Origin: Halichondria panicea
Lineage: Eukaryota > Porifera > Demospongiae > Suberitida > Halichondriidae
NCBI RefSeq assembly: GCF_963675165.1
Contig: NC_087386.1
Span: forward strand, 608,931 to 672,930
Direction: 5' to 3'
DNA: 64,000 nucleotides
Position 1 is the stretch's first letter. The number at the start of each line of letters is the position of its first letter. Below, in pieces: positions 1-56,830 of this stretch. The notes under the pieces were generated by a model. It did not search any database and had not been told where the DNA came from. It saw only the letters and a list, made by a program, of their open reading frames with translations. Made by a program: the position numbers and the translations under genes.

Positions 1-3000
1 TTCTCCAGCTCTCCCAGCAGTTGTTTCCGGTCCTGGTCAGTGATGTCACCAGACAGTCTCTGTTGGAGGGCAGCTCTTCTCTGGGGGAGTAAAGAATTTA
101 TATACGACTGAATGAACATTCCACCAAATAAAACATGCAGCTAGCTGATACAAATGTACAAATTATCAAAATCAGCAACCACCAACCTAAATAAACTTGG
201 CGAGCATATCATAATATTATATTTACCTGCAATACGGTATAACCTCACACAGTCAAACAGTAAAAGTGGACTTATAAAACGTACACAAAGGTAGACAAAG
301 AGCAACCATTCATCATACAATGGACAGTACATGTACACACATTGTCGTTCTGCTAGACTACGTGTACCACTCTTACCACAAGAGTAGTAAGTGCAACTGT
401 CAACACTCACCGTCTCATGATGCTTCAGTTCACTCTCATACTCAGCCTTCCACTGGACAAGGTGAACAAGAGTGGGTTAGACTGTGTGTTTGTGGTCACA
501 CATTATGAGTTGTCTATAGGAGCAACCAGTGTAGCTACTAGAGTCGGGTAAGGATATGAGACTATTACAAACTGAATGCATATGAGGTGTACGGTATGTT
601 TGCCAACATTGTTTGACTCACTTCCTATCGTTCCAGATATTCAGTAACCATGGAAATGTAGGGAGAGAGAAAAGAATATAATCACAAACCTGTACACTAT
701 GAATGCCAATACACATGTACTCATGCAACTCAAACATTACTGACACAAGTACAGTCACAAGTCAGTGCAGTGTCCCGCGCTCACCTTCTGTTTAGTCCAA
801 TGAGACACCAGCGCCAGACACACATGGAAACAGAGAGAGGGGGATGATGGTAGAAGCAGTGAGTGCATTCATACATGTCTGTATATACTGTAACTTACAT
901 TCTGTTGTTCCAGTAATCATTAGCAGTAGTCATATTAACAAGCAGTAGGACACGGACATGTAGAGAAATGAACATGTTCAAATACACGAATGCATTCACA
1001 CATGTATACATCAATTATTGCAAGTACACGTCTGTACAGCATGAAACTTTCAGTACGTACTAATCCTAAATAAAGTCACGCAAGTTATTCTTTCTGCCTT
1101 CATGCAGTAGTACATGTATACAAGTCAGCCTAGTACGCCATTATATGTACATGCAATAAACTCACCATCTGTTGTTGAGTAACAGTCCACAGAGGGTACA
1201 TGTGAGGAGAGAGGGATATGAACACTGGTAGTACACACACTGGCTAGTACACACACAGGTACTCAGTACTAGCAACAGCAGATAATGGAAGGGTCAGTGG
1301 GTGGGTCAGTGGAAGGGACGGTAAACGGTACAACAAGCATCTTACATGTACAACTTTGATACGTATGATTTTGTTTGTCGTACAATACAACACCTGCACT
1401 TCATGAGACACACACACAATCACAACATACCTCAATGGCACGCTGAGACACATCAAATGGTACATGTGAGGGAGAGATTTAATCTTAACACACATAAAAG
1501 ACTTGAGATCAGTTGAACGCTGGTGTGTATGGGACTGACTACACATAGCAACAAGTGGCTAGACCTGGCATAGAAAATCAAAGAAATAAAGAAACATTGA
1601 GAAATAGGCAACAAGTTTTAGGTTCAGTAGGCACTTAATTGGTTGGGGAATTTACATAAACACAAATTTACATGTACACAATGTACACAATGGTGGTATT
1701 TCGAACTTGTGCCCGTAAAATGGGATTACGAATTGAACAAGTTTAAAGCCGTGGTCTACCCTATACGAGGGAGAGGGTCAGCTCTAGAGGACAAGGGACA
1801 CACGCTAATGATGCTAGGTAACCAGTACATCCGTACACATTGCAGCTGAACCATTTTAGTGTGTGGACATTGAGTACTCGTAAGAAGCTCACCTCCTACA
1901 GTAGTCCAAATCAGTGTGTGGTCCAACATAGGAATGAGTGTGTGCATGGGAAGAGACAAACACGATAATGTACGTACCAACTAATGAACTTAGGTGTATA
2001 TTCTACGAATATTAAAACTACAACCTAATAAGTTGTGTGGGCCTCGGCTAATACCAAGTTGGCAATAATTATGGAAAGAGACAAAATACAATTTACGAGC
2101 TCCTATAGTAACCATTAAAATGAGTGTGCACGTGCAAACACAACTTACACACTGTTGATCCAGATAGGGAGAGTCCACAGGGCAAACACGTGGGAAGATA
2201 GTAAATGAATGATTACGAGGTTGAATGTGATCATACTAAATATTTCCCTATATAACACTATGGCACTGCACACACACAAGAGTAATAATGGGGAAGTAGA
2301 AACATCACAGAATATCCAACAGACGCTAAACACTCTGACAACACACACCAACTTACAATCTGTTGTTTCAGAGGGTCAGTCAAAGGTGAGGTGGAGATAC
2401 ATGAAATGGAAGGAAGAGAACATTAGTGCAGTGATACAGTACACTGGTGATTGCATGACACAGGGGAGGGGAAACAATTGTGGACAGCCAAACATGCAGA
2501 CTGAAACACTTGATTAACCATGCATACTTTCAGGTACTACTACGAGTAGCCTCGATCCCAGGCCGCACTTCCCACTTCACTTAGGGAAGTGGGCCTGGTA
2601 TCGACTGCTTCCGCATGCGCTAATATCCCCCCGGTATCTGGGGGCTTTGGATAATATCGTATATGCTCAGTAAAACTGTAACATCACAACGAACGAAAAT
2701 GGATTGAGGGAAGTAGATAGAAAGTTGGATTGAGTTTCTAGCCCATCTGATAGCATTCTCTGATAGCTACTCTTAGCCTGCTATGTTAACAAAAGACTCA
2801 CAGCCTGCAACAGTGTGGATGACGATCATCTGAACAGAGTGAAAGCTGACAAGAGCCTATATGGACAGGCCACGCCCATTTAACACTATCTTTGGTGAAA
2901 GTCTACTATACTACTGCTACTGATTCTATCAGAAGAAAATAGCTGTACAACAAACCTACACAGCTCTGTCTCTAGCTAGCTAGCTATATAGCTCTGTGAT

Positions 3001-3563
3001 ATTTTCTCTGATGAATCTAGTGTTATAGGAAAATTTACGGGAAAAAATATCCAATAATTTGGCGCATGCGCAAGCAGTCGATAGCAGGCCTTCTTTTCTA
3101 TGAAGGCCGGTGAAGGAGGCTACACTACGAGTAGATCTACTTGTCTTAATTAAGGAATAGTATCACATTCAGTTATCTGTATGTGCTCTTCTTTACACTG
3201 TCTACCTCCTAACAACAAGTGCTCAGAGCACAAGCATGTCAGCTTGGTAGAATGTGATTGCACACAACGTACCTTAATCCCTTTCTGTTGTCCATCCAGA
3301 GAGAGTGGTACATGTGGAGAGAACAACAACATGAGATAAAACACCTCACACTGACAGGGTAGAGTGTAGGCACTATACTGTGATGAATGAATGATGACAA
3401 GTGTGTTTATGGGTGGTCAACAAGTACATCTAGGCACTAGGAGAATGCACTGATCATTGAGTATCTATCTATCATGTGAATATCATACCCTTTCCTGATC
3501 AGTGAGCCCATCCTCCATCAACTGTAGGGAACTAGCAGCATTCAGGGTTGTAGATTCAGCCAT
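1..3563 (-). CDS. Hypervariable heptad micro-exon coiled-coil gene, copy A (3' end outside window)
   Basis: Twelve phase-0 exons, read from high to low coordinate: 3489-3563 (ATG at 3563), 3273-3284, 2357-2359, 2149-2151, 1893-1895, 1431-1442, 1166-1168, 899-901, 785-787, 622-624, 411-452 and 1-80 (cut by the window edge). Each lies between AG and GTRAGT-type signals. Decoded after exon 1 (ending GLTDQER) the exons give KGIK, I, C, E, RAIE, M, N, K, E and WKAEYESELKHHET, then the helix continues with RRAAL. Exons 2-5 and 6-9 each spell one heptad (positions fgab, c, d, e). The frame is open as far as visible. Compared with copy C, 13 of the 29 codons in exons 2-11 differ, every one by replacement. 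I recognise no family; a coiled-coil recognition or dimerisation role is inference. It is divergently arranged with SEC22. Confidence 0.8.
2549..3123. mobile_element. Non-autonomous element in micro-exon gene intron, copy A
   Basis: 575 bp beginning GCCTCGATCCCAGGCC and ending GAAGGAGGCTAC, flanked by direct repeats ACTACGAGTA (2539-2548 and 3124-3133). Inner segments AGCAGTCGATAGCAGGCC and its near complement form imperfect inverted repeats. The same insertion lies in copy C (34946-35533) and is cleanly absent from B and D. No coding capacity is seen. Class is uncertain. Confidence 0.75.
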
Positions 3564-3756: not shown

Positions 3757-4757
3757 TCCAGTGATGGACTACCTCTGTCCTCATCCATTGTCAATGAAGA
3801 GGTAGAGGAGCTACAGTAGATAATACAGTACAATCTGCATTGGTCCCATCAGGACACTGTACTGTATGCAGCTCAGTGACATGAATAGTTGTCAAGTCAT
3901 GATTCTGTAGACATATAAAGAGAACCTTGCTAGAATAATACGTGTGTAGTGTGTGCTATCTTTAACAGCTTGAATTAACTGAATTGTTGCATTCTCCCTC
4001 TGCAGTCTGGCCGGGATTATGCTGAATACCAACCCAAGGCCAAGCAGATATTCCGCAAGCTGTCGTCAGTCAGCCCCCCTCGATGCTCAATCGAGTGTGA
4101 CCCGGGTCGTATGGTGTTCCAGTAAGCACTCTCCTGTGAATGTCATTATTGCCTCGTGGTGTGTATGATGATTGGTGCTCTGTCATGGTATAAACTGATG
4201 CAATGGATGGCCTTTTGTTTGTGAGCATTTGCTTAACTGTACCATACACATTGTAAGTGGTGTGTGTTATACATAGGTCCCTCTATAGTGATTGTCTAAC
4301 AAGGAACTACCAGTGTACATGTAGTCTAAGAATAGTTGGAACTTGGTTGGTGATATTATACTCCAGTTTAATGGTGGATGAGGGGCGATGACTTTGAGCT
4401 TGAAGCACACACACTAACATGGACCCCCCACATAGCTACATCCTTGAGGAAGGGATATGCTACCTCGCCCTGTGTGACCCCACCTATCCTGTCAAGCTGG
4501 CCTTTAACTACCTCGAGAATCTACACAAAGACTTCAGTGAGCAACATGGCAACGATGTACACAAGGCCAGTCGACCGTACCACTTCATTGAGTTTGGTAC
4601 GTAATTATAAGGTCATGCTTTTTCCTATGTCAGCATTGGACATGCACAGCTGGGCAACACCAGCACTTGCAGTTTCTTGTGTGTGTACTGTTTCAATTCA
4701 GTGTTGCTACCACTGTTATATATAGTACAGAATGTCCTTCCTCTCACACCCACTCAC

Positions 4758-4805
<48 letters not shown>

Positions 4806-12730: not shown

Positions 12731-13321
12731 GATGCTCCCGATGGTTCATGTAATTAATATTAGGGAAGTGGGTAAAGAGATCTCCATGCATCCTTAGCCC
12801 CTCCTCCTTTTCAGTGCATAAAAGGCCTCATCTTCAGTGCGGCCTTGGATCGAGGCTAAAAGATCCCCTTCCTCCTACGTTTTTGACTTGTTGCAGTTCA
12901 CCCATGTGGCGTGTGGGTTATAAACCGGGGCTCCGGAGCTGTAGTGGGTGGCCGGGAAACTGGTCACTCACTTTCCTGTATACGTAGTCTTTCATTGTGA
13001 TAGTAGACAGCCCTCCTGTAGTCTTTCATTAGATCACAGCCCTCCTGTAGTCTTTCATTGTGATAGTCAACAGGAGCCAGCCCTTCCTGTAGTCTTTCAT
13101 TAGATCACAGCCCTCTGGCCTGTAGTCTTTCATTGTGATAGTCAACAGCCCCGGCTACAGTGATAGTTTTTTTTTTATGTTTTTTTTTTTTATAATGTAA
13201 AATACACTAGCACAGTGCAGTTCGCAACATTCCTTATAATTATAAAACAATTGACAAAAGCATCTTTTCTAAAGATAATATATAACGGCCACAAAAAATG
13301 TTACCCTCACTAGCACGAGTG
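12731..13321. other. Spacer between XDH start and STOML2 stop
   Basis: Contains a tail with the dispersed-repeat end GGATCGAGGCTA (12848-12859), a short tandem of TGTAGTCTTTCATTGTGATAG (about 12985-13150), poly-T tracts and AT-rich sequence. No gene seen; it should include the XDH promoter and the STOML2 3' UTR. Confidence 0.6.
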
Positions 13322-14101
13322 TTACTTTTCGTCGTCAGTTGGTCTCGTTGGTGAAGTATCTAGAGTGAAGTGTGTATCTCTGTCCTTCTTTGCTGCCTTC
13401 TCTTCGCTGAGCACGGACCTAAATACACTCTCATCGATTGTCTTGTCAATAGAGGCAGTGAGTTGCTCCAGTGTCTGCTCTGTGGAGGGTGGGTCGTGGG
13501 GGGTCCCCTCTTCACCATCAGCGGACTTCAAAGGACTGTTTGATGTCATGTGACCAAATATTCCAACAGCCTGCGATCACAGAACAAGAAGCAATATAAT
13601 CATTATCATAAATGCACTCTATGAACAAAATTATTGGACGTTCCTAACACAGTTATGGACAATGCAAGATAGCTCTGAAAACAGGCCTGATTTAGAAAAA
13701 ATATACACTAATATGCGGTGTTTTTACACACAGCACACATCACACACACAGCACACCTGTGAGACCATTGAGCTGATGTCACCAGTCTTTTCTGGCAGGA
13801 TGAGAGTGTTGGTGGTCCTGGCCAGTTGGGAGAAAGCTGCCACATACTGTTCTGCCACTGCCAGTGAGGCTGCCTTATCGCCATTCTACAAGATAAATAA
13901 ATAAAAACAGCAGCTGGTACAGATAAGCTATATTTAAAATTGCAGCGAATATATTAAAACAAGTAGACAGCTACCTGTCTTCCAATGGCTGCCCCCAGTG
14001 TGTTGAGAGCCTGAGCTCGGGCCTGAGCCTTGGCAAGAATGGCGACGGCCGGACACTCTTTCACCGGCTCGCTCCCCACCAGATTGTAGCCGTACGTCAC
14101 T
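13322..14101 (-). pseudogene. STOML2: Stomatin-like protein 2, C-terminal exons only
   Basis: Three exons: 13980 to about 14101 (PAVAILAKAQARAQALNTLG), 13757-13885 (NGDKAASLAVAEQYVAAFSQ ... ILPEKTGDISSMVSQ) and 13322-13570 (AVGIFGHMTSN ... PTDDEK, stop). They match the helical C-terminal part of mitochondrial STOML2, a prohibitin/SPFH scaffold of the inner membrane. The SPFH domain and mitochondrial presequence would lie at higher coordinates but the sequence changes to copy B at about 14105-14130. The visible frame is open; the gene is truncated by the junction. Confidence 0.8.
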
Positions 14102-14372
14102 GGGTTTTTAAAGTTGGGAAATTGTAGTATGTTCAGTAGGGCACTTAATTTACAAATTTACATGTACACAATGGTAGTATTTCGAACTTGTGCCCAAAAA
14201 AAGGATTACGAATTGAACAAGTTTAAAGCCGTGGTCTACCCTATACGAGGGAGAGGGTCAGCTCTAGAGGACAAGGGACACACGCTAATGATGCTAGGTA
14301 ACCAGTACATCCGTACACATTGCAGCTGAACCATTTTAGTGTGTGGACATTGAGTACTCGTAAGAAGCTCAC

Positions 14373-15440
14373 CTCCTACAGTAGTCCAAATCAGTGTGTG
14401 GTCCAACATAGGAATGAGTGTGTGCATGGGAAGAGACAAACACGATAATGTACGTACCAACTAATGAACTTAGGTGTATATTCTACGAATATTAAAACTA
14501 CAACCTAATAAGTTGTGTGGGCCTCGGCTAATACCAAGTTGGCAATATGGAAAGAGACAAAGACAATTTACAAGTTCCTAGTAACCATTAAAATGAGTGT
14601 GCACGTGCAAACACAACTTACACACTGTTGATCCAGAGAGGGAGAGTCCACAGGGCAAACACGTGGGAAGATAGTAAATGAATGATTACGAGGTTGAATG
14701 TGATCATATTAAATATTTCCCTATATAACACTATGGCACTGCACACACACAAGAGTAATAATGGGGAAGTAGAAACATCACAGAATATGCAACAGACACT
14801 AAATACTCTGACAACACACACCAACTTACAGTCTGTTGTTTCAGAGGGTCAGTCAAAGGTGAGGTGGAGATGCATGAAATGGAAGGAAGAGAACATTAGT
14901 GCAGTGATACAGTACACTGGTGATTGCATGACACAGGGCAGGGGAAACAATTGTGGACAGCCAAACATGCAGACTGAAACACTTGATTAACCATGCATAC
15001 TTTCAAGTACTACTACGAGTAGATTTACTTGGGAATAGTATCACATTTAGTTATCTGTATGTGCTCTTCTTTACACTGTCTACCTCCTAACAACAAGTGC
15101 TCAGAGCACAAGCATGTCAGCTTGGTAGAATGTGATTGAACACAACGTACCTCAATCGTCCACTGTTGTCCATCCAGAGAGAGTGGTACATGTGGAAAGA
15201 ACAACAACATGAGATAAAACACCTCACACTGACAGGGTAGAGTGTAGGCACTATACTGTGATGAATGAATGATGCCAAGTGTGTTTATGGGTGGTCAACA
15301 AGTACATCTAGGCACTAGGAGAATGCACTGATCATTGAGTATCCATCTATCATGTGAATATCATACCCTATCATAATCAGTGAGCCCATCCTCCATCAAC
15401 TGTGGGGAACTAGCAGCATTCAGTGTGTAGATTCAGCCAT
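14373..15440 (-). pseudogene. Micro-exon coiled-coil gene, copy B (frameshifted, 3' truncated)
   Basis: Exons 15367-15440, 15151-15162 (WTIE), 14830-14832 (T), 14622-14624 (C) and 14373-14375 (E). Exon 1 is 74 nt instead of 75: one base lost in the ACAACCCTG region gives MAESTH then TGA. Exons 6-12 are absent because the copy starts at the STOML2 junction. Micro-exon positions and splice signals are otherwise preserved, and the codons differ from those of A, C and D, so it diversified before it broke. Confidence 0.8.
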
Positions 15441-26884: not shown

Positions 26885-29800
26885 TCAACTCGTATTCTCT
26901 ACAATGAATCTACAAATGTCTGTAGCAGTGTCTCCTCTTCTCAGTCCTATGGCAATTTCTACCAAGGCCCTGAAGGTAGCTCTGGTAGGATTCACTCTTC
27001 GCCACGCTCTCAATGCATGAGCCACTCCAGCTTGATTGCCATAGCGACTTGTGACATCAGTTACATCATCGAGGTCGGCTGGTGTGAGGTTGAGTCGATT
27101 CAGCAGGTTAGGAGTTGTGACTGAATGCAAAGAAAAAAGCTAAGATAATGATAGTCTATATCAAGCACTACACACATGCAGCCAGGCTAATAAAAAAAAA
27201 TACGCAAACATTGAAAATAGTTACCTGTGATGCTATCAGCCAAATTGATGAGCTTCACTGAGGGCTTTTTGAGAGCGTCTGACAGGAGACTCCATGTTAC
27301 ATTTTGCGTACTCAGGAGCTCAGCCAGCATTTCACGCAAGCACAGCACATTATCGCCACGATGCTTGCTATCGATATTGGTGAGAACAGGATAAGTTAGA
27401 CCTAGAGCCAATCCCAGATTGAACCAGTGAGGGCTGGCACTTGCATGTGCAGTGTGTAGTTTCTCGTAAACATGTTGCAGATCGTTAATTGTCAAAGCCT
27501 GTACAAAAGCAACAATCAACAGGGTTTCATTTGGTGGGAGTTGCCTTCTCAGAAATCTAGAGGAAACTCAAAGGGAATACAATTGAAGGAACAATATTTT
27601 TAATAGAACAGGTTGTATAATGAATTCCTAGGGGCATGCCACGAACCCAGAGGAGGATGTCAGGGTCAAAGGTCTTCTGTTTTACAGAGAACTTAAAAAT
27701 ATCAGTAGGAAATTAATGAAGAATGGAGGTACAAAAGAAAAATTAGACGATCGGAATGCAAAATCCTTGGGAAGTAAATTTTTGACTATCCTTTTCTGCC
27801 ACGAACCATCTAGATACATGTACACTTTACGTCACTTTCACAAATATCTTACATATACCATTTGCTCGATCAATCCCCTTACTAAAATGTTAGGTTGCAC
27901 ACTCAGTAGGTGAGGAAATTTCTCCGCAAATCGAGTGATGTCACTCTCAGGGATTTCTTGATCGAGCTGTTGATCAGTCACTCCAGTCTTCCTGCACATG
28001 TCTTCCATTACAGAGGATGATTGCAATTTATCTGAAGAGAGAAATTCAATATTAGCAATCACTTGAATATAGATGGTTTAACTTTCATACTGCTATCTGA
28101 TCATACCAGAGTATTGCTGCTGATCACTCTTTCTCTCAGTCTTCGTACAAGTACCTCCCGTAGCAGAGGATGGTTCACCTATATACATTAGGAGGGAACA
28201 AAGAAGTAAATTTCAATTTAAAAACCACTGTACTCACCAGAACCTTCGCTATTGTCCAGCCAGATTCTATGTTCGTCACTGAGCTCTTCCCACACATCAG
28301 CCTCAAGGGAGCACATCCAAAACTTACAGCCATTTCGTTCGCTCACATCGGCAAGGTGTAATTTGCGTATGCTTCCGGTGCTCTTCTTGCATGGGCAAAA
28401 GATTCCTGTCTCGGGTGTGTCGTTGTTGTAATGCAACGCTTGACAGGACAATCTAATGCTTTTCAAAATTTCGTTACGGACCGCAGGGCAAAGTTCTTTG
28501 CGAAGAGAAAAAAGGACCTTGATATATACTTCAAGATACGAGAAGGAGTCGATCAGAGTCACGGTACACGGGAGCTTGGGAAGTTTTAGCTGGATACAAT
28601 TTTTAGCAAAGCAAATTGGTTTCCCTGAAGGAAGTAAAACTTTCCAGCCCAGCCTCTTGATTACGTCAACAACTAGACAGCAAAAGACTCCAGAGCGAAT
28701 ACACCCACTACGAAAGTAGATAGCGAGGGGTGATATTGTGAAGGAGGAACGGATTTTGTCTAGCTCAGCAGGTGGGATCGATGTGAGTAGAGATGGCATG
28801 AAGAACTCGGCTTGGTGGGAAGTGGCTTCCACTAGAGGAATGGGAGCAATCACGAGAAGATATTTCATGATCAACAGCATATCTTCTGGAGAAAAGATGC
28901 CTTCAACGTAATGCTTCTTAAAGAATCGTAGAAACTTTAAAGTGATTATGCCCTCGTCTCGAAATCTCTTCCATTCGGCCCCTGTCCCTCCTGGGCTAAT
29001 AGTAGAGTGTGCATTCCTCAGAAAAATGGCGTGCTGTGAGAGCTCGGTGATCTTGTCTAGTGGAATCTGGGCATCCACAAACACTGTGTTGGGGAGAATG
29101 GAGGGATAGTAGTGCGCTATACACACGTTGTCAAAGAAGACCAGAGCAGCTTCAAGATCTTTGAGCAAATAACCAAATCGAGTGGCTAATTGGAGACATT
29201 CTTCAATGCCTAGTACACCTCGCTCAAGACTGGCAGATAAACTCTGGAGAAGTGAATCCAAGAAGGACCACCAGACAGGAACTTCGACTTGTAGCGGAAT
29301 AGAGTCCTCAATAGCAATTCTAATCCTATTGGCAGTGGTCAGTGAATCTTCTTCTCGGCTGATTGTGTTGAGACCAAAAATCAGATTGTTCAATCCAAGA
29401 TTTTCGTACACCAATAGCTTCTTGATATCGGGTGGAAGCATGTCGAGAATCTCTTGATTCCTCTCGATAAGTGTATCCGAGCTCTTCAGCTGATCAAAGA
29501 ATGTGCCCACAAAGATCATCTTCGGCTTCTTGTCTTGTGAGGTATGGGACTCAATGGATCGAATGAGACTCTGAAGTGTCTCCCCAAGGGTCATGTGAGA
29601 TGCACGAGGACTACCAACAAGCTGCCCATCCTTGTAGTACTCGTCAGAAGGGAAACTGGAGAGTTTGTCAATCAAACGCAGGACTATCAACGCCACCGAA
29701 ATGTGCTTGATGAAGAGAGGGCTGATGTCGTGGAATTGCGGCTGGCCGCCACAGTCGGTAACATACACCCAGTTGGAATCAAACAGTTCTCCTTCTTGCT

Positions 29801-30358
29801 GGTCACTGCTCGACAGTTGGTCAGTTTCCTGTATGGGTGGCTTCAGCTCTTCTGCCACACCACTCACTACACTCGCTATCACTTCATCAACGGCTTTCTT
29901 CAACATTCTTGCAGATCCAGAAAGTGTATCGGAATCGTTCCTCAATGGGCTCGAAATGGAATCAAAAATTTGCTCATCGGAACCAGAAATTAGCTCGGTT
30001 GTGGTCATCTTCTTCAAGCTCTCGGCAACCCTTGATGCTGTGGATGGATCGGCGTTTTCTTTTGGTAACTTAGCGATGATTTCAGCAAGTAGCTTGCGCA
30101 GCTTTGGCTGAGACATCTCTTCCCAGCCTCTTTCAGTTGACTTGAATTTCGTGTTGGACACGGGTCGAATGCGTATTGGCTTTTCCATACAAGGAGTGCT
30201 TTCACGCTGTGGTGGAGGGGGCTTGTCGGTTAGCAGGTGCTTGAGGTTGGTCTTCCCTGTTCCCGCCGGTCCAAACACAAGCATGTTGACAATGTTGACC
30301 GAGACGTGTCCGTGCTTCATCGCCTCATCAAACAACCGCTTTGCTGATAGCTTCGATT
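26885..30358 (-). CDS. Roc/COR-like GTPase with death domains, copy B
   Basis: Exons: 28238-30358, 28107-28178, 27893-28031, 27225-27498 and 26885-27120 (stop). The large exon starts SAKRLFDEAMKHGHV. It has a P-loop GPAGTGKTN, a DCGGQPQFHD switch motif typical of Roc/ROCO GTPases, and VGTFFDQL at the fourth G motif, where Roc proteins usually have THxD. A COR-like region (VWWSFLDSLLQ ... FVDAQIPLDKITEL) follows. The 27225-27498 and 26885-27120 exons look like death domains (HWFNLGLALGL ... LREMLAELL; DVTSRYGNQAGVAHALRAW). Such proteins are expanded in sponges and resemble innate sensors; that role is inference. No upstream exon was found, so the N-terminus is open. Confidence 0.75.
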
Positions 30359-31885: not shown

Positions 31886-34800
31886 CTACAGGTACGAGTG
31901 ATTGCAACTATGAGCATCAACACTCACTGTACTATAAAGTTCCTTGCTCCCCTCACCTTCCTTTCTCCGTCTCTCTGGTCTTCCTCGTATCTCAGCAATC
32001 CTATTCTCATAGTATTGTATATTCCCCTCACAACGTTGTATCTCTGAGACACACTTCTTGATCTCCCCCTCCACCTCCTCCAGCTCTCCGAGCAGTTGTC
32101 TCCGGTCTTGGTCAGTGATGTCACCAGACAGTCTCTGTTGGAGGGCAGCTCTTCTCTGGGGGAGTAAAGAATTTATATACAACTGAAGAAAAATTCCACC
32201 AAATAGAACATGCAGCTGATACAAATGTACAAATTATCAAAATATAAAAATCAGCAACCACCAACCTAAATAAACTTGGCGAGCATAATTATATATTTAC
32301 CCGCTATACGGTATAACCTCACACAGACAAACAGTAAAAGTGGACTTACAAATCATACCTAAAAAAAGGTAGACAAAAAGCAACCATTCATCATACAATG
32401 GACAGTACATGTACACACATTGTCGTTCTGCTAGACTACGTGTACCACTCTTACCACGAGAGTAGTAAGTGCAACTGTCAACACTCACCGTCTCATGACG
32501 CTTCAGTTCACTCTCATACTTAGCCTTCTCCTGGACAAGGTGAACAACAGTGGGTTAGACTGTGTGTTTGTGGTCACACATTATGAGTTGTCTATAGGAG
32601 CAACCAGTATAGCTACTAGAGTCAGGTAAGGATATGAGACTATTACAAACTGAATGCACATGAGCTGTACGGTATGTTTGCCAACATTGTTTAACTCACT
32701 CTCTATCGTTCCAGATATTCAGTAACCATGGAAATGTAGGGAGAGAGAAAAGAATATAATCACAAACCTGTACACTATGAATGCCAATACACATGTACTC
32801 ATGCAACTCAAACATTACTGACACAAGTACAGTCACAAGTCAGTGCAGTGTCCCGCTCACCTTCTGTTTAGTCCAATGAGACACCAGCGCCAGACACACA
32901 TGGAAACAGAGAGAGGGGGATGATGGTAGGAGCAGTGAGTGCATTCATACATGTCTGTATATACTGTAACTTACAAACTGTTGTTCCAGTAATCATTAGC
33001 AGTAGTCACATTAACAAGCAGTAGGACACGGACATGTAGAGAAATGAACATGTTCAAATACACGAATGCATTCACACATGTATACATCAATTATTGCAAG
33101 TACACGTCTGTATAGACTGGCGGCGACAGCCCCTCGCATGCGTAGCGCGAGGGACTGGCAAACTGCCTATCAGTCACTCGTCTCAGCTGCAACGAGCATT
33201 GCAGCCTATCAGATTGCTCAACGTCATATTAGCCCTGTAATTGTAACCGCACTTACACTTTAGGGGATTCAGTATTAGTAGCTGAATCTCATAGCAAAAT
33301 TTAACCACATTATCTATAACGATATTCATGTTTAGTAGTGTCATACGATCTATTACACTTCCGCTGAGACAAGTGACTGATAGGCAGTTTGCCAGTCGCT
33401 CTATCGCCGCCAGTCTAACGTCTGTACAGCATGAAACTTTCAGTACGTACTAATCCTAAATAAAGTCACGCAAGTTATTCTTTCTGCCTTCATGCAGTAG
33501 TACATGTATACAAGTCAGCCTAGTGCGCCATTATATGTACATGCAATAAACTCACAGTCTGTTGTTGAGTACCAGTCCACAGAGGGTACATGTGAGGAGA
33601 GAGTGATATGAACACTGGTAGTACACACACTGGCTAGTACACACACAGGTACTCGGTACTAGCAATAGCAGATAATGGAAGGGTCAGTGGGTGGGTCAGT
33701 GGAAGGGACGGTAAACGGTACAACAAGCATCTTACATGTACAACTTTGATACGTATGATTTTGTTTGTCATACAATACAACGCATGCACTCCACGAGACA
33801 CACACACAATCACAACATACCTTAATCCAATCCTGAGACACATCAAATGGTACATGTGAGGGAGAGATTTAATCTTAACACACATACAAGACATCAGATC
33901 AGTTGAACGCTGGTGTGTATGGGACTGACTACACATAGCAACAAGTGGCTAGACCTGGTATAGAAAAGCTAAGAAATAAAAAAGTTGGGGAAATATTGAG
34001 AAATAGGCAACAAGTTTTAGGTTCAGTAGGCACTTAATTGGTTGGGGAATTTACATAAACACAAATTTACATGTACACAATGTACACAATGGTGGTATTT
34101 CGAACTTGTGGCCGTAAAATGGGATTACGAATTGAACAAGTTTAAAGCCGTGGTCTATCCTATACGAGGGAGAGGGTCAGCTCTAGAGGACAAGGGACGC
34201 ACGCTAATGATGCTAGGTAACCAGTACATCTGTACACATTGCAGCTGAACCATTTTAGTGTGTAGACATTGAGTACTCGTAAGAAGCTCACCTCCTACAG
34301 TAGTCCAAATCAGTGTGAGGTTCAACATAGGAATGAGTGTGTGCATGGGAAGAGACAAACACGATAATGTACGTACCAACTAATGAACTTAGGTGTATAT
34401 TCTACGAATATTAAAACTACAACCTAATAAGTTGTGTGGGCCTCGGCTAATACCAAGTTGGCAATAATTATGAAAAGAGACAAAATACAATTTACGAGTT
34501 CCTATAGTAACCATTAAAATGAGTGTGCATGTGCAAACACAACTTACAGCCTGTTGATCCAGAGAGGGAGAGTCCACAGGGCAAACACGTGGGAAGATAG
34601 TAAATGAATGATTACGAGGTTGAATGTGATCATACTAAATATTTCCCTATATAACACTATGGCACTGCACACACACAAGAGTAATAATGGGGAAGTAGAA
34701 ACATCACAGAATATGCAACAGACACTAAATACTCTGACAACACACACCAACTTACATTCTGTTGTTTCAGAGGGTCAGTCAAAGGTGAGGTGGAGATGCA

Positions 34801-35973
34801 TGAAATGGAAGGAAGAGAACATTAGTGCAGTGATACAGTACACTGGTGATGCATGACAGAGGGGAGGGGAAACAATGTGGACAGCCAAACATGCAGACTG
34901 AAACACTTGATTAACCATGCATACTTTCAGGTACTACTACGAGTAGCCTCGATCCCAGGCTGCACTTCCCACTTCACTTACGAAAGTGGGCCTGGTATCG
35001 ACTGCTTGCGCATGCGCTAATATCCCCCCGGTATCTGGGGGCTCTGGATAACATCGTATCTGCTCAGTAAAACTGTGACATCACAAGGAACGAAAGTGGA
35101 TTGAAGAAAGTAGATAGAAAGTTCGATTGAGTTGCTAGCCCATCTGATAGCATTCTCTGATAGCTACCCTTAGCCTGCTAAGTTAACAAAAAACTCACAG
35201 CCTGCAACAGTGTGGATGACGATCGTCTGAACGGAGTGAAGGCTGACAAGAGCCTATATGGACAGGCCACGCCCATTTAACACTATCTTTGGTGAAAGTC
35301 TACTATACTACTCCTACTGATTCTATCAAAAGAAAATAGCTGTACAACAAACCTACACAGCTCTGTCTCTAACTAGCTAGCTATATAGCTCTGTGTATGA
35401 CTTTTAGGATATTTTCTCTGATGAATCCAGTATTATAGGAAATTTTACGGGAAAATATATCCAATAATTTGGCGCATGCACAAGCAGTCGATAGCAGGCC
35501 TTCTTTTCTATGAAGGCCGGTGAAGGAGGCTATACTACGAGTAGATCTACTTGTCTCAATTAAGGAATAGTATCACATTCAGTTATCTGTATGTGCTCTT
35601 CTTTACACTGTCTACCTCCTAACAACAAGTGCTCAGAGCACAAGCATGTCAGCTTGGTAGAATGTGATTGCACACAACGTACCTTAATCCTTGTCTGTTG
35701 TCCATCCAGAGAGAGTGGTACATGTGGAGAGAACAACAACATGAGATAAAACACCTCACACTGACAGGGTAGAGTGTAGGCACTATACTGTGATGAATGA
35801 ATGATGCCAAGTGTGTTTATGGGTGGTCAACAAGTACATCTAGGCACTAGGAGAATGCACTGATCATTGAGTATCTATCTATCATGTGAATATCATACCC
35901 TATCAAAAGCAGTGAGCCCATCCTCCATCAACTGTAGGGAACTAGCAGCATTCAGGGTTGTAGATTCAGCCAT
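31886..35973 (-). CDS. Hypervariable heptad micro-exon coiled-coil gene, copy C (intact)
   Basis: Exons, 5' to 3': 35899-35973 (MAESTTLNAASSLQLMEDGL TAFDR), 35683-35694 (TRIK), 34756-34758 (N), 34548-34550 (A), 34292-34294 (E), 33821-33832 (DWIK), 33556-33558 (T), 32975-32977 (F), 32861-32863 (K), 32700-32702 (R), 32489-32530 (EKAKYESELKRHET), 31886-32155 (RRAALQQRLSGD ..., stop). All are phase 0 and the frame is open for 143 codons. Joined, the exons give an amphipathic helix with heptad a = I, I, K, L, R, L and d = A, F, Y, H, L. Exons 2-5 and 6-9 each encode one full heptad as 12+3+3+3 nt. The long last exon is highly charged coiled coil. An alternative end is a donor at the GTGAGT after KELYST. 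Family unknown; cytoplasmic, since no signal or membrane segment is seen. Confidence 0.85.
33113..33417. mobile_element. Mutator-like MITE with 9-bp target duplication, copy C only
   Basis: 305 bp beginning TAGACTGGCGGCGACAG and ending with the near complement; the ends include AGTGACTGATAGGCAGTTTG pairs. Flanked by ACGTCTGTA (33104-33112 and 33418-33426). A and D show the empty site. A 9-bp duplication is typical of Mutator-like elements. It sits in intron 7 of the micro-exon gene, which stays intact. Confidence 0.85.
34946..35533. mobile_element. Non-autonomous element in micro-exon gene intron, copy C
   Basis: Orthologue of 2549-3123 at the same intron-2 site, with the same flanking ACTACGAGTA. 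Absent from B and D. Confidence 0.75.
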
Positions 35974-47839: not shown

Positions 47840-50800
47840 TCAACTCGTATTCTCTACAATGAATCTACAAATGTCTGTAGCAGTGTCTCCTCTTCTCAGT
47901 CCTATGGCAATTTCTACCAAGGCCCTGAAGGTAGCTCTGGAAGGATTCACTCTTTGCCACACTCTCAATGCATGAGCCACTCCAGCTTGATTGCCATAAC
48001 GACGTGTGACATCAGTTAAATCACTGAGGTCGGCTGGGGTGAGGTTGAGTCGATCGAGCAGGTTGGATTGATTGACTGCATGAAAAAAAGGCACCACAAA
48101 AATTAATATAGTTATGTACATTTTAATGTCTATATCAAGCACTAAAAATGACAAATAAAGCAAACTACACATGCAAACACTGAAAATGGTTACCCATGAT
48201 GCTATCAGCCAAATTGACGAGTTTCACTGTGGGCGCTTTGAGAGCGTCTGACAGGAGACTCCATGTTACATGTTGTGCACTCAGGAGCTTAACCAACATT
48301 TCACGCAAGCACAGCACATTATCGCCACGATGCTTGCCAGTATCGATGTTGTTGAGAACAGAATGACGGAGACCTAGAGCCAATCCCAGATTCAACCAGT
48401 AAGGGGCACTTTCATGTAGAGTCACGTAAACATGTTGCAGATCGTTAATTGTCAAAACCTGTAAATAAACAGTGTTTAATTTGGTGGGGGTTGCCCCTAG
48501 CAAATACCTTCTAGGAAACTCAATGGGAATACATGCAATTGAGTGGTTCTGGTTAACAATATTCTTAATAGGGCAGGTTAAGTAATTCTTGATTATTGGC
48601 ATACCACGAACATGTCATCACCCCCAACTAACATCTTACATGTACTTCCCTTGCCAAAATGTCAGGAGGATAAGTACTTATTAAGATTTAGAGTGCCTAC
48701 CTTGTGCACGCTCAGTAGGTGTGGAAATTTCTCCGCAAATCGAGTGATGTCACTCTCAGGGATTTCTTGATCTAGTTGTTGGTCCCTCACTCCAGTCTTC
48801 TTACACACATCTTCCATTACTGCAGCAGAGGATAATTCACCTGAAGAAAACAACAGTTATACTAAATCATTATCAGGTCGGAGAAAAAAAATTAAACTTT
48901 CAAGCTTGAAATAACTTGTTGAATTTTCTTACTGGTATGTTGATCGCTCATTTTATCAAACACATGTTCCATTGCAGGAGAGGATTTGTCTGAGGAGGAA
49001 ACAGTTATAAACAAAAAAACCACAAAATAAAAAGCCTACCAGAAGTATTTCGCTGATCATGAACATGCACATGTACTTCCGTCTTCTTACACACATCTTC
49101 CATTACAGAATTACCTGAGGAAAAGCAGACACAGCAGTTACGCTCATGTAGTACGTTTATCAATTAACATGCTCACTCAAACAAGGCTGTTGATCACTCA
49201 TTCCAGATCCAGTGCTACTAACAACATTGGCCAGAGTCCCACATTGATGGACTGAACAAAACAAAGGAATTACTAAAACAACAACATGCATATCAAAGTT
49301 AATGTTGTTCTTCCACTCAATAGAGAGCTGCTGTTATGTATACTTACCGGAGTTTTGCTGCTGATCACTCTTTCTCTCAGTCTTCGTACAAGAACCTCCA
49401 GTAGCAGAGGATGATTCACCTAATTTAGGGCAAAATATAGACTGTTTAATTATAAAAATCACTCGGTACTCACCAGAACCTTCGCTATGGTCCAGCCAGA
49501 TTCTATCTTCATCACTGAGCTCTCCCCACACACGTGCCTGAAGGGAGCATATCCAATAGTCCTTCTGTTCACTGACATCAGCAAGGTGCAATTTGCGTAT
49601 GCTTCCAGTGCTCTTCTTGCATGGGCAAAAGATGCCTGTCTCGGGTGTGTCGTTGTTGTAATGCAACATGTCACACGACGATTTAATGCTTCTTAAAATT
49701 TCATTGCGAATGGAAAGACAAAGCTTTTTGCGCAGAGGAAAAGGGACGTCAATGTATACTTCGATATACGAGAATGAGTCGATCAGAGCCACGGTACACG
49801 GGTGCTTGGGAATTCTTAGCTGGATACAATTTTTAGCAAAACAGATTGGTTTCCCTGAAGGCAGCAAAACTTGCCAGCCCACCCTCTTGATTACGTCTAC
49901 AACTAGACAGCAAAACACTCCAGAGCGAATACACCCACTACGAAAGTAGACAGCGAGGGGTGATGTTGTGAAGGAGGAACGAACTTTGTCTAGCTCAGCA
50001 GGTGGGATCGATGTGAGTAGAGATGGCATGAAGAACTCGGCTTGGTGGGTAGTAGACTCCACTAGTGGAATGGGAGCAATCACGAGAAGCTTTTTCATGA
50101 TCAACAACATATCTTCTGGAGAAAAGATGCCTTTAACGTAATGCTTCTCGAAGAATTGTAGGAACTTTACAGTGATTATGCCCTCGTCTCTAAATCTCTT
50201 CCATTCGGCATCTGTCCCTCCTGTGCTTGATTTGATTTCAGGAGTCCTCAGGGAGATGGCGTGCTGTGAGAGCTCGGTGATCTTGTCTAGTGGAATCTGG
50301 GCATCCACAAACACTGTGTTGGGGAGAATGGAGGGATAGTAGTGCGCTATACACACGTTGTCAAGGAAGACCAGAGCAGCTTCAAGATCTTGGAGCACAT
50401 AACCAAATCGAATGGCTAATTGGAGACATTCTTGGATGCCTAGTACACCTCGCTCGAGAGTGGCAGATAAAATCTGGAGAAGTGAATCCAAGAAGGACCA
50501 CCAGATGGGCATTTTGACTTGTAGCGGAAAAGAGCGCTCAATAGCAATTCTAATCCTATTGGCAGTGGCCAGTGAATTATCTTCTCGGCTGATTGTGTTG
50601 ACACCAAAAATCAAATTATTCATTCCAAGATCTTCGTACACCAATAGCTTCTTGATATCGAGTGGCAGCATGTCGAGAATCTCTTGATTCCTCTTGATAA
50701 GTGTATCCGAGCTCTTCAGCTGATCCAAGAATGTGCCCACAAAGATCATCTTCGGCTTCTTGTCTTGTGAGGTATGGGACTCAATGGATCGAATGAGACT

Positions 50801-51579
50801 CTGAAGTGTCTCCCCGAGGGTCATGTGAGATGCATGAGGACTACCAACAAGCTGCCCATCCTTGTAGTACTCGTCAGAAGGGAAACTGGAGAGTTCGTCA
50901 ATCAAACGCAGGACTACCAAGGCCACCGAAACGTGCTTGATGAAGAGAGGGCTGATGTCGTGGAATTGTGGTTGTCCACCGCAGTCGGTAACATACACCC
51001 AGTTGGAATCAAACAGTTCTCCTTCTTGCTGGTCACTGCTCGACAGTTGGTCAGTTCCCTGTGTGGCTGGTTTCAGCTCCTTTGCCACACCACTCACTAC
51101 ACTCGCTATCACTTTATCGATGACTTTGTTCAACATTCTTGCAGAGCCAGAAAGTTCATCGGAATCGTTCGTCGATGGGCTCAAACTGGAATCAGAAGTT
51201 GGCTTATTGGAACCAGAAATTGGCTCAGTTGTGGTCATCTTCTTCAAGCTCTCGGCAACCCTTGACGCGGTGGATGGATCGGTGCTTTCTTTTGGCATCA
51301 TGGCGATGATTTGAGCTAGTAGCTTGCGCAGCTTTGGCTGAGACATCTCTTCCCAGCCTCTTCCAGTTGACTTGAATTTCGTGTTGGACACGGGTCGAAT
51401 GCGTACTGGCTTTTCCATACAAGGAGTACTGTCTCGCTGTAGTGGAGGGGGCTGGTCAGTTAGCAGGTGCTTGAGGTTGGTCTTCCCTGTTCCCGCCGGT
51501 CCAAACATGAGCATGTTGACAATGTTGACCAAGACGTGTCCGTGCTTCATCGCCTCATCAAACAACCGCTTCGCTGATT
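47840..51579 (-). CDS. Roc/COR-like GTPase with death domains, copy C
   Basis: Exons: 49474-51579, 49348-49419, possible linker exons near 49040-49116 and 48932-48990, 48701-48840, 48194-48458 and 47840-48075 (stop). Motifs as in copy B: GPAGTGKTN, DCGGQPQFHD, VGTFLDQL, the COR-like block, then two death-like domains (YWLNLGLALGLRHSVLNNID; DVTRRYGNQAGVAHALRVW). The short linker exons repeat the theme VMEDVCKKT-x-V and DQQ, as if one exon had been duplicated. The frame is open throughout. Amino-acid divergence from B is much higher than for the neighbouring EDEM3 PA exon. Innate-sensor function is inference. Confidence 0.75.
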
Positions 51580-52328
51580 CTAAACAAGATGTCACTATAA
51601 TTACACATGCAATATATTCTATAGTACACTAACTCAACACATGGATATGTAGTCGGTTGCCTAGCTACAAAAGGTATAACATGCAAACATAATAATTATT
51701 GATGTAATAAAAAAAAATGGTGATGTCAGTGGGTGGGGCAATGAGCAATGGGAAAAAAATGTAAAGGGTCATTAATTGAACACACACCAATCAATACAGT
51801 GCTGCCTCTGGCAGCAAAACAGCTGTTTTTTACGAAAACAGTACACAAGACAGCTATTACATTAATTTTAAGTTGACAATGCGCACCCGAGACATAACAA
51901 TATGTACAGCCATGCAGCTGTAGTGTCTTCTCAGGTAGGGCTCCAGTTGGCTGTCATAGTGCGCATGTGCAATGAAGTGCCTCCAATTAAAGCAGAATAC
52001 TATATCTAGCTAGCTCTATAGCCAATGTGTATAGCTTCTTAGCTTTTGCTCGCTTTTAATCCTTTATTAAATATATCTTTTGTGTGGAGGCTATCCTAGC
52101 CTCGATCCCAGGCCGAGCTTTCGTTTTTATAACAGTTAGGCGAACAACTAGAGGTTAGAGGCTATTATTATGTCTTTTATGTGGAGGCTATCCATGCTGT
52201 AAAAGCAGCGCTATGGCATTCAGGTGAGCAGACTCAGAATACACTCAGAATACACACATACACAAATCATATATACTGCATGTACAATAGAGTACATTGA
52301 GTGTGGAAGGCAACTAGGTAGCATATGC

Positions 52329-53380: not shown

Positions 53381-53479
53381 AGACGTGTACAAAAGTCAGT
53401 TTCCTAGCAACATAAAGTTTATAAAACCAACAAAAAGAGCGGGATTACGAACATAGTAAAAGCTTTCATTAAATGGACC

Positions 53480-56400
53480 AGCTGTATGTACAGTCTACTA
53501 ATAACACACTACATGTAAGTTGCTACAGGTACGAGTGATTGCAACTATGAGCATCAACACTCACTGTACTATAAAGTTCCTTGCTCCCCTCACCTTCCTT
53601 TCTCCATCTCTCTGGCCTTCCTCGTAACTCAGCAATATCATTCTCCATGATATGTGTACCCCTCTCACATCCTTGTATCCTTGAGACACACTTCTTGATC
53701 TCCCCCTCCACCTCCTCCAGCTTTCCCTGCAGTTGTCTCCGGTCCTGGTCAGTGATGTCACCAGACAGTCTCTGTTGGAGGGCAGCTCTTCTCTGGGGAA
53801 GTAAAGAATATATATACGACTGAATGAACATTCCACCAAATAGAACATGCAGCTGATACAAATGTACAAATTATCAAAATATAAAAATCAGCAACCACCA
53901 ACCTAAATAAATTTGACGAGCATATCATAATATCATATTTACCCGCTATACGGCATAACCTCACACAGTCAAACAGTAAAAGTGGACTTTTAAAACATAC
54001 ACAAAGGTAGACAAAAAGCAACCATTCATCATACAATGGACAGTACATGTACACACATTGTCGTTCTGCTAGACTACGTGTACCACTCTTACCACGAGAG
54101 TAGTAAGTGCAACTGTCAACACTCACCGTCTCACGACTCTTCAGTTCACTCTCATACCCAGCCTTCCTCTGGACAAGGTGAACAAGACAACAGTGAGTTA
54201 GACTGTGTGTTTGTGGTCACACATTATGAGTTGTCTATAGGTGTAGCTACTAGAGTCAGGTAAGGATATGAGACTATTACAAACTGAATGCATATGAGGT
54301 GTACGGTATGTTTGCCAACATTGTTTAACTCACTCTCTATCGTTCCAGATATTCAGTAACCATGGAAATGTAGGGAGAGAGAAAAGAATATAATCACAAA
54401 CCTGTACACTATGAATGCCAATACACATGTACTCATGCAACTCAAACATTACTGACACAAGTACAGTCACAAGTCAGTGCAGTGTCCCGCTCACCTTCTG
54501 TTTAGTCCAATGAGACACCAGCGTGAGACACACATGGAAACAGAGAGAGGGGGATGATGGTAGGAGCAGTGAGTGCATTCATACATGTCTGCATACTGTA
54601 ACTTACATTCTGTTGTTCCAGTAATCATTAGCAGTAGTCACATTAACAAGCAGTAGGACACGGACATGTAGAGAAATGAACATGTTCAAATACACGAATG
54701 CATTCACACATGTATACATCAATTATTGCAAGTACACGTCTGTACAGCATGAAACTTTCAGTACGTACTAATCCTAAATAAAGTCACGCTTTCTGCCTTC
54801 ATGCAGTAGTACATGTATACAAGTCAGCCTAGTACGCCATTATATGTACATGCAATAAACTCACAGTCTGTTGTTGAGTAACAGTCCACAGAGGGTACAT
54901 GTGAGGAGAGAGTGATATGAACACTGGTAGTACACACACTGGCTAGTACACACACAGGTACTCGGTACTAGCAATGGCAGATAATGGAAGGGTCAGTGGG
55001 TGGGTCAGTGGAAGGGACGGTAAACGGTACAACAAGCATCTTACATGTACAACTTTGATACGTATGATTTTGTTTGTCGTACAATACAACACACGCACTC
55101 CACGAGACACACACACAATCACAACATACCTTAATGCCAGTCTGAGACACATCAAATGGTACATGTGAGGGAGAGATTTAATCTTAATACACATACAAGA
55201 CATCAGATCAGTTGAACGCTGGTGTGTATGGGACTGACTACACATAGCAACAAGTGGCTAGACCTGGCATAGAAAAGCTAAGAAATAAAAAAGTTGGGAA
55301 AAATAGGCAACAAGTTTTAGGTTCAGTAGGCACTTAATTGGTTGGGGAATTTACATAAACACAAATTTACATGTACACAATGTACACAATGGTGGTGCAT
55401 AGAAAAGCTCTTGGGAATAATATTCAACAATTAACTTAATTAGTTGTGGAATTTACATGTACACAATGTACACAAAATTAATGTATACACACCAACTTGT
55501 GCGTAAAATGGGCCTACGAATTGAACAGTTAAAATGTGCCCTGGCCTACACCTGGGGTAACCACAAACTGGGAGGCTGATATCGTCCTCGTAGCCATGGT
55601 CTACCCTATACGAGGGAGAGGGTCAGCTCTAGAGGACAAGGGACACATGCTAATGATGCTAGGTAACCAGTACATCCGTACACATTGCAGCTGAACCATT
55701 TTAGTGTGTGGACATTGAGTACTCGTAAGAAGCTCACCTCCTACAGTAGTCCAAATCAGTGTGTGGTCCAACATAGGAATGAGTGTGTGCATGGGAAGAG
55801 ACAAACACGATAATGTACCAACTTAGATGCATATTCAATGAACCACCAAAAGTAATATAAGTACAGCCTAATAAGTTGTGTGGGCCTCGGCTAAATATTA
55901 ATTTACGAGTTCCTAGTAACCATTAAAATGAGTGTGCACGTGCAAACACAACTAACCCACTGTTGATCCAGAGAGGGAGAGTCCACAGGGCAAACACGTG
56001 GGAAGATAGTAAATGAATGATTACGAGGTTGAATGTGATCATACTAAATATTTCCCTATATAACACTATGGCACTGCACACACACAAGAGTAATAATGGG
56101 GAAGTAGAAACATCACAGAATATGCAACAGACACTAAATACTCTGACAACACACACCAACTTACATTCTGTTGTTTCAGAGGGTCAGTCAAAGGTGAGGT
56201 GGAGATGCATGAAATGGAAGGAAGAGAACATTAGTGCAGTGATACAGTACACTGGTGATGCATGAACACAGGGGAGGGGAAACAATTGTGGACAGCCAAA
56301 CATGCAGACTGAAACACTTGATTAACCATGCATACTTTCAGGTACTACTACGAGTAGATCTACTTGTCTCAATTAAGGAATAGTATCACATTCAGTTATC

Positions 56401-56830
56401 TGTATGTGCTCTTCTTTACACTGTCTACCTCCTAACAACAAGTGCTCAGAGCACAAGCATGTCAGCTTGGTAGAATGTGATTGCACACAACGTACCTCAA
56501 TGTCCAACTGTTGTCCATCCAGAGAGAGTGGTACATGTGGAGAGAACAACAACATGAGATAAAACACCTCACACTGACAGGGTAGAGTGTAGGCACTATA
56601 CTGTGATGAATGAATGATGCCAAGTGTGTTTATGGGTGGTCAACAAGTACATCTAGGCACAAGGAGAATGCACTGATCATTGAGTATCTATCTATCATGT
56701 GAATATCATACCCTTTCCCAATCTTGAAGTCCATCCTCCATCAACTGTGGGGAACTAGCAGCATTCAGGGTTGTAGATTCAGCCATTTCAAGAGAAGGTC
56801 TGGAACGCCCCTTATATTTCTTTGTGGGAG
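53480..56830. repeat. Segmental duplication, copy D (first gene only)
   Basis: Contains the complete micro-exon gene and the start of the divergent promoter; similarity ends at about 56830, where the CDK9 promoter region begins. Confidence 0.85.
53523..56786 (-). CDS. Hypervariable heptad micro-exon coiled-coil gene, copy D (intact)
   Basis: Exons: 56712-56786 (... GLQDWER), 56496-56507 (LDIE), 56165-56167 (N), 55957-55959 (W; donor GTTAGT), 55738-55740 (E), 55130-55141 (TGIK), 54865-54867 (T), 54607-54609 (N), 54495-54497 (K), 54334-54336 (R), 54127-54168 (RKAGYESELKSRET), 53523-53792 (stop). The frame is open for 143 codons. Against copy C, 11 of the 29 codons of exons 2-11 differ, none silently. 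The last exon also differs in clusters (SRIQGCERGTHIMENDIAEL against SEIQRCEGNIQYYENRIAEI). Lacks the element present in A and C. Its upstream neighbour is CDK9 instead of SEC22. Confidence 0.85.

Follow-up and report, generated by a model that had tools for sequence, protein, structure and literature searches.

Hypervariable codons in predicted one-codon exons of a tandem gene family of the sponge Halichondria panicea

Four copies in the window and their relatives

The window analysed here, a stretch of 64,000 nucleotides (nt) from the sponge Halichondria panicea (C10:608931-672930 of a 131 Mb genome in 39 contigs), holds four copies of a gene family in which the codons of very small predicted exons are hypervariable whereas the adjoining introns are nearly identical. 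The genome contains Wnt genes, which marks it as that of an animal. Copies A, C and D have the full exon series, and copy B is truncated. Exon 1 is followed by nine micro-exons of 12, 3, 3, 3, 12, 3, 3, 3 and 3 nt, seven of them one codon long. All exon readings given for the four copies in a preliminary description of the window were reproduced at exact coordinates, and its pairwise counts were recovered without change: in exons 2-11, copies A and C differ at 21 of 87 nt and at 13 of 29 codons, with no silent change, and copies C and D at 11 of 29 codons, again with none. Its observation of near-identical flanks was borne out as well, with 52 of 60 ungapped 50-nt comparisons (A-C, A-D and C-D) differing by 0-4 bases. 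The other eight differ by 7-32 bases and look like register shifts caused by small insertions or deletions, such as those visible in the alignment.

Further copies, which that description had proposed to look for, exist elsewhere in the genome. The family numbers at least 40 copies or remnants spread over two contigs, C10 and C13, and those analysed have micro-exon variants of their own. The exon-1 region has at least 40 genome matches (40 scored of 50 candidates), 26 on C10 and 14 on C13, and exon 12 has 42 together with one partial match. The sample comprises 34 copies, all 26 of C10 and 8 of the 14 of C13; the remaining six exon-1 places, all on C13, and several places with exon 12 only lie outside it. 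Exon order is consistent in all 34. Exon 12 is present in 30, here called full copies, and 28 of these retain all nine micro-exons (L011 is without exons 5-7, L028 without exons 8-10), while four copies, copy B among them, have exons 1-5 only. The length of exon 1 is divisible by three in 32 of the 34, the exceptions being copy B (L023) and L008. Copy B, with a 1-nt deletion in exon 1 and exons 6-12 not found, is probably dead and pseudogene-like. Two diverged paralogues, L040 (C10:5.26 Mb) and L042 (C13:5.00 Mb), have kept the same arrangement of one-codon exons, exon 5 encoding E and exon 9 encoding K; L040-L042 were examined by motif scan only.

Counts of diversity, stops and flanks leave out L023, full-copy counts leave out L012, L018, L023 and L039, and the exon-12 columns leave out L015, which has a deletion there. 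The sequence of L039 reaches just past exon 5, and the exon-12 search lists no match near it. Retained in the counts are L008, with an exon 1 of 82 nt and a broken frame, and L006, with an unusual exon-1 call. A spliced-protein genome search for an uninterrupted, single-exon relative of the heptads listed only separate exon-1 and exon-12 matches. One further candidate from the motif scan, a GCT between AG and GT in intron 2, was judged by eye to be part of an insertion and not an exon. The exon 2 region of L028 contains a 24-nt tandem duplication, so that two differing versions of exon 2 (RYIE and WRIE) stand consecutively and in frame.

Codon variability, helical period and recombination

Eight micro-exon codons are hypervariable: codons 1 and 2 of exon 2, exons 3 and 4, codons 1 and 2 of exon 6, and exons 7 and 8. 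Mean diversity (pi) at their first, second and third positions is 0.64, 0.70 and 0.38 in C10 and 0.66, 0.70 and 0.35 in C13, against 0.021 and 0.012 in the near flanks (20 nt upstream and 12 nt downstream). The contrast in rate first described for the window thus holds across 33 copies (25 of C10, three of them truncated, and 8 of C13). Within 6 nt of the codons, on both sides, diversity is 0.009-0.016 in C10 and 0 in C13. The ungapped C10 values at 1-3, 4-6 and 7-12 nt are 0.016, 0.009 and 0.038 downstream and 0.013, 0.015 and 0.007 upstream; a raised downstream value in the intron alignments of C10 (0.065 over the first 3 nt) was not upheld by this recount.

Among full copies the hypervariable codons differ in 88% (C10) and 91% (C13) of comparisons, and the combinations of eight residues are all different in the 30. 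Codon difference is uncorrelated with intron distance (rho 0.02 for 210 pairs of C10 and 0.09 for 28 pairs of C13). Where 100 nt on each side of a codon contain no base difference, the codons themselves differ in 47 of 63 pairs in C10, truncated copies included, and in 7 of 7 in C13; these pairs are not independent, and only base differences, not insertions or deletions, were counted in the flanks.

The claim that micro-exon codons are hypervariable stands for most of them, but exon 5 is GAG in 25 of 26 tabulated copies and exon 9 is AAG in 24 of 24. All 27 tabulated copies use ATT for the isoleucine of exon 2. Strongly varying codons also occur inside longer exons, namely exon 1 (by eye), exon 11 and exon 12, those of exons 11 and 12 varying as much as the hypervariable micro-exon codons. 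The pattern is better put as hypervariability of residues on one face of predicted helices, many of which happen to sit in one-codon exons.

The evidence for such a face lies in the spacing of the variable codons. Exons 2-5 make up seven codons, x-x-I-K/E-x-x-E, and exons 6-9 another seven, x-x-I-E/K-x-x-K, one heptad each; the pattern recurs in exon 12, where I stands at codons 39, 46 and 53. A conserved stripe of I, K/E and E or K occupies heptad places 0, +1 and +4, and the hypervariable residues fall at +2, +3, +5 and +6. Variability has a period of 3.5-3.6 residues in exons 2-11, where none of 20,000 permutations was as strong, and also in codons 37-58 of exon 12, a stretch picked after inspection (P 1e-4 and 5e-5). 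A period of this length would place the varied residues on one face of predicted helices that also bear the conserved stripe. The variable region as a whole may fold as a coiled coil and hairpin.

Several counts bear on whether these codons are translated. Stops are absent from the hypervariable codons, 0 of 184 in C10 and 0 of 64 in C13; shuffling within columns leads one to expect 8.8 in C10, where none of 2000 shuffles was free of stops, and 1.3 in C13, where 20% were. Synonymous pairs are nearly absent among differing codons (8 of 1780 in C10, 2 of 203 in C13). A silent-transition alternative at the third base was seen in 0 of 157 codons at five of the eight positions; at codon 2 of exon 6 there are two exceptions among 29, and codon 1 of exon 2 and the codon of exon 7 give a mixed picture. 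Minority-transition states are found at 17 of 184 third positions in C10, against 44 first and 61 second positions, and at 6 of 64 in C13, against 17 and 21. Relative to random codons there is an excess of W (28 of 236, with 4.9 expected), N (24, 7.7 expected) and D (19, 7.6 expected) and a shortage of V (4, 20.7 expected) and L (14, 29.3 expected), as well as of isoleucine, serine, P and K. All 264 called micro-exons are bordered by AG and GT, a count partly built in because the caller required a donor-like motif.

Replacement also exceeds the neutral standard. The proportion of replacement differences (pN) is 0.63 in the hypervariable micro-exon codons, against mean intron distances among full copies of 0.027 (C10, 210 pairs) and 0.020 (C13, 28 pairs). 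The ratio of pN to the proportion of silent differences (pS) is 3.35 and 17.6 in exon 11 and 1.64 and 2.31 in exon 12.

Introns of C10 recombine. Across 20 copies and 119 sites, incompatibility between neighbouring sites is 0.256 against 0.381 overall, none of 1000 permutations was lower, the minimum number of recombination events (Rm) is 35, and nearest-neighbour copies change from intron to intron. The same test on C13 (8 copies, 22 sites) was not significant, with P 0.32 and Rm 11. In the micro-exons of C10, sharing of one codon has no predictive value for sharing of the next, though numbers are small: in exon 2, whose codons adjoin without an intron, 0.04 of the 27 C10 pairs sharing codon 1 also share codon 2, against a base rate of 0.08. 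The copies thus recombine, but their micro-exon codons seem to be set mostly one at a time. Some co-inheritance of codons is seen in exons 11 and 12, exon 11 being identical in L013 and L020 and again in L014 and L022. Codon and flank are linked at exon 4, where TGG occurs with a GTTAG donor in all four TGG copies and in no other copy.

Predicted downstream domains and neighbouring sequences

The predicted architecture consists of N-terminal variable helices, a Roc-like GTPase and a C-terminal Death-like end (Table 1). P-loop residues and a DxGGQ motif are invariant in an alignment of six GTPase sequences. Of five distant relatives fetched, four were scanned, and Roc fell below the Pfam cut-off in all four; no COR match was listed in these or in the GTPase exon of copy C. 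No NACHT or NB-ARC match was listed in either half of that exon at E up to 10, though filters drop most matches above about 0.1, and scans of N-terminal, GTPase and C-terminal parts found no leucine-rich repeat (LRR) match. Sequence searches of PDB gave no informative match, and the best match of a search with the profile of the six aligned sequences was Rab-like protein 3 (E 0.058). The GTPase exon has at least 106 genome matches (111 scored of 201 candidates), some of them pieces of one exon. The last exon of copy C alone matches Death with E 0.085, below the cut-off, and 7 of 8 of its genome relatives fetched match Death at E 0.11 or better, one of them above the cut-off. At least 150 genome matches to this exon (150 scored of 523 candidates), many on C1, C3, C5 and C7 at 31-47% identity, suggest a very large family.

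Table 1. Features of the four copies in the window (positions in the window; all on the minus strand)
Feature	Position	Strand	Remarks
Copy A (locus L009) exon 1	3489..3563	-	MAESTTLNAASSLQLMEDGLTDQER
Copy A exon 2	3273..3284	-	12 nt, KGIK
Copy A exon 3	2357..2359	-	one codon, I
Copy A exon 4	2149..2151	-	one codon, C
Copy A exon 5	1893..1895	-	one codon, E; nearly invariant family-wide
Copy A exon 6	1431..1442	-	12 nt, RAIE
Copy A exon 7	1166..1168	-	one codon, M
Copy A exon 8	899..901	-	one codon, N
Copy A exon 9	785..787	-	one codon, K; invariant among tabulated copies
Copy A exon 10	622..624	-	one codon, E
Copy A exon 11	411..452	-	42 nt
Copy A exon 12, first part	1..80	-	remainder of gene left of window
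Copy B, truncated, exons 1-5 only	14373..15440	-	1-nt deletion in exon 1
Copy B exons 1-5	15367-15440, 15151-15162, 14830-14832, 14622-14624, 14373-14375	-	
Copy C exon 1	35899..35973	-	
Copy C exon 2	35683..35694	-	TRIK
Copy C exon 3	34756..34758	-	N
Copy C exon 4	34548..34550	-	A
Copy C exon 5	34292..34294	-	E
Copy C exon 6	33821..33832	-	DWIK
Copy C exon 7	33556..33558	-	T
Copy C exon 8	32975..32977	-	F
Copy C exon 9	32861..32863	-	K
Copy C exon 10	32700..32702	-	R
Copy C exon 11	32489..32530	-	
Copy C exon 12	31958..32155	-	198 nt; conserved stretch, then second hypervariable codon set; donor just beyond
Copy C large GTPase exon	28238..30358	-	P-loop, DxGGQ, Roc-like; borders by eye
Copy C penultimate coding exon (matched stretch)	27229..27498	-	Death-like by eye only; alone without Pfam match
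Copy C last coding exon	26888..27121	-	Death-like domain
Copy D exon 1	56712..56786	-	
Copy D exon 2	56496..56507	-	LDIE
Copy D exon 3	56165..56167	-	N
Copy D exon 4	55957..55959	-	W
Copy D exon 5	55738..55740	-	E
Copy D exon 6	55130..55141	-	TGIK
Copy D exon 7	54865..54867	-	T
Copy D exon 8	54607..54609	-	N
Copy D exon 9	54495..54497	-	K
Copy D exon 10	54334..54336	-	R
Copy D exon 11	54127..54168	-	
Copy D exon 12	53595..53792	-	198 nt
Copy D large GTPase exon	49334..51628	-	stop-to-stop open frame, not exact borders
Copy D C-terminal exons (span 47843..48458)	48198-48458, 47843-48076	-	match last two coding exons of copy C

Other sequences accompany the copies. Downstream of truncated copy B, at 13300-14110 (minus strand), lie exons that by eye we take to be stomatin-like, as if a breakpoint had joined copy B to the 3' part of another gene. 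Copies C and D are each followed, past their C-terminal exons, by exons that we assume to be EDEM/alpha-mannosidase-like (26015-26260 and 46907-47152, minus strand), which would mean that the duplicated block carries other genes too. On the plus strand one exon, by eye presumably SEC22-like, occurs in three copies (4006-4122, 15930-16046 and 36458-36574), identical over 39 residues and inside repeated blocks. A large minisatellite with strong GC skew occupies 58987-63775; its unit is 49 bp long, and the first 49-bp row has 57.8 copies of it.

Explanations and known systems

In our view these are probably intracellular receptor-like genes, forming a large tandem family, and the surface residues of their products are probably under extreme diversifying selection. 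Of the three causes that the preliminary description had offered, strong diversifying selection is well supported, and the other two, gene conversion from a pool of codons and a mutator aimed at the micro-exons, are less so. With a presumed recognition role and presumed GTPase and Death activity, the variable helices would be the sensor, their outer residues choosing the binding partner, and the partner may itself be changing, for example a microbial product or a marker of self and non-self. On binding, the GTPase would act as the switch, and the Death-like domain would be engaged and signal. Introns would be alike because the copies are young and recombining, and codons would outpace them because amino-acid changes have repeatedly been favoured. 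The one-codon exons may be incidental, or may let single residues recombine safely.

A number of observations weigh against this interpretation. The hypervariable positions were picked after inspection of the data, and splicing of the 3-nt exons is predicted from genomic sequence. Third-position diversity in the hypervariable codons (0.35-0.38) is far above that of introns, and their pS (Nei-Gojobori), 0.34 and 0.30, is roughly tenfold that of introns, which leaves pN/pS at only 1.87 and 2.12; conserved codons give 1.16 in C10, not clearly below 1, and 0.48 in C13. Multi-step replacement paths can carry third positions along. Codons of exons 2-4 differ in 33% of comparisons among the four truncated copies (6 pairs) and in 90% among full copies (231 pairs), and the first figure is more than introns suggest if the truncated copies are dead; as a control free of selection these are less variable yet related to one another. 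Pfam places Roc in the GTPase exon of copy C at E 0.018 and 15.7 bits, below the cut-off of 27, and the structure prediction for that exon, from a two-sequence alignment, has a predicted local distance difference test score (pLDDT) of 30 and is unusable. The last two exons of copy C, joined, match Death (PF00531) at E 0.015, below the cut-off, and Pfam gives no Death match in the last exon of copy D or in either penultimate exon. A hairpin about the conserved SGDITDQD stretch would bring the two variable stretches next to each other, but support for it is weak. Their mirror comparison gives 0.80 at register 84 and 0.78 at 77, but at register 83, which the turn would lead one to expect, the value is -0.01, and the signal may therefore reflect the heptad period alone.

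Beyond selection on surface residues, the family may be a device for diversification codon by codon, a tentative idea that we hold to be rather doubtful. One-codon exons between homogenised introns would let residues of a helical face be replaced or recombined singly, with frame and fold undisturbed, yielding an open-ended germline repertoire that would serve innate or self recognition; some local mechanism of mutagenesis or conversion might contribute.

It is unlikely that a targeted mutational process, either hypermutation or templated mutagenesis resembling a diversity-generating retroelement (DGR) in effect, rewrites the codons and leaves selection merely to purge bad outcomes. The decoupling from flanks within a few bases, the third positions that exceed introns with pS about 0.3, the independent change of neighbouring codons and the continued variation of truncated copies are all in keeping with such a process, and because third positions vary far more than introns a mutational share may be present. 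That said, the similarly built exons 5 and 9 hardly vary, variation is strong inside exons 11 and 12 as well, and a mutator would have to know the helix to generate the helical period. Nor would it readily account for the absence of stops, for the lack of silent-transition alternatives at five of eight positions, or for tryptophan at about sixfold its frequency in random codons. Targeting of A in the manner of a DGR is disfavoured by the invariant ATT and near-invariant GAG beside variable codons.

We find it similarly improbable that old codon variants under balancing selection are shuffled by gene conversion that also homogenises the introns, with the micro-exons as recombination cassettes. 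Recombination of C10 introns with switching of nearest neighbours, the identical exon 11 of two pairs of copies and the tie between TGG and its donor fit such shuffling. However, the 6 nt bordering the codons, upstream and downstream, show no raised diversity, codons 1 and 2 of exon 2 do not tend to be inherited together (in only 27 informative pairs), and the C13 introns gave no significant signal of recombination. Finally, although exons of 3 nt are seldom seen and difficult to splice, and those proposed here are read from genomic DNA, it is very improbable that the 3-nt stretches are intronic features and their variation non-coding, given that stops are absent and silent differences almost so, that 12+3+3+3 nt spells one heptad twice with a period continuing in exons 11 and 12, that the layout persists in diverged paralogues, and that AG and GT border every called micro-exon, in part by construction.

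Near-identical DNA units with few hypervariable contact codons are familiar from PRDM9 zinc-finger arrays and TALE repeats, which are DNA-binding repeats and, to our knowledge, have no one-codon exons. Many tiny exons and fast protein evolution are likewise found in schistosome micro-exon genes, whose products are putative secreted effectors. Aphid bicycle genes resemble the sponge family in their many very small exons and fast protein evolution; they too are putative secreted effectors, and the available part of their account (PMC9168663) describes no saturated single codons framed by conserved introns. One-codon exons exist and are spliced, the 3-bp exons of Drosophila homothorax, troponin T and mammalian NCAM being examples, which the sections available list as single cases (PMC7392893), whereas each gene of the sponge family would have seven, some of these hypervariable, and the gene copies number in the dozens.

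Two further parallels share the logic of the sponge family. Brown-algal ROCO (LRR-ROC-COR) genes are described as having 72-bp LRR exons, 23 residues per repeat and each in-phase; in every repeat diversifying selection acts on a few codons at the predicted binding face, and an immune role is proposed (PMC11378527). They resemble the sponge family, whose GTPase is Roc-like by prediction, in having a ROC-type GTPase, units in their own in-phase exons, few selected codons on a predicted binding face and a proposed immune role, but the sponge heptads lie in exons of one and four codons, the variable part is helical by prediction and N-terminal, and no LRR appears in the parts scanned. The exons of that variable part are 3, 12, 42 nt and longer, not 72 bp. 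Brown-algal repeats are shuffled in number, as far as that paper's available text goes, whereas the sponge family varies by codon replacement between gene copies (PMC11378527). In fungal NOD-like receptors (NLRs) with high internal conservation (HIC), such as het-d and het-e, near-identical repeats are kept so by concerted evolution, and a few hypervariable codons are under diversifying selection at the predicted interaction surface, as proposed for the sponge; these are WD40 repeats varying within one gene, and codons isolated by introns go unmentioned in the portion of the source at hand (PMC12222747).

The logic of near-identical units with few selected surface codons thus appears to be known already from fungal HIC NLRs and brown-algal ROCO genes, whereas for packaging into one-codon exons no printed precedent was found: the literature searched, which held no preprints and few subscription papers, yielded nothing on one-codon exons that are hypervariable. 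In this family, selection on single residues can be told apart from the adjoining DNA unusually cleanly for a natural case, with saturated replacement in the codons and near-unchanged introns within bases of them, and seven one-codon exons in one gene pose a hard splicing problem. If expressed as proposed here, a helical sensor with GTPase and Death-like modules would join the few highly polymorphic germline recognition systems, and how such an animal distinguishes microbes or other individuals would become testable by population sequencing.

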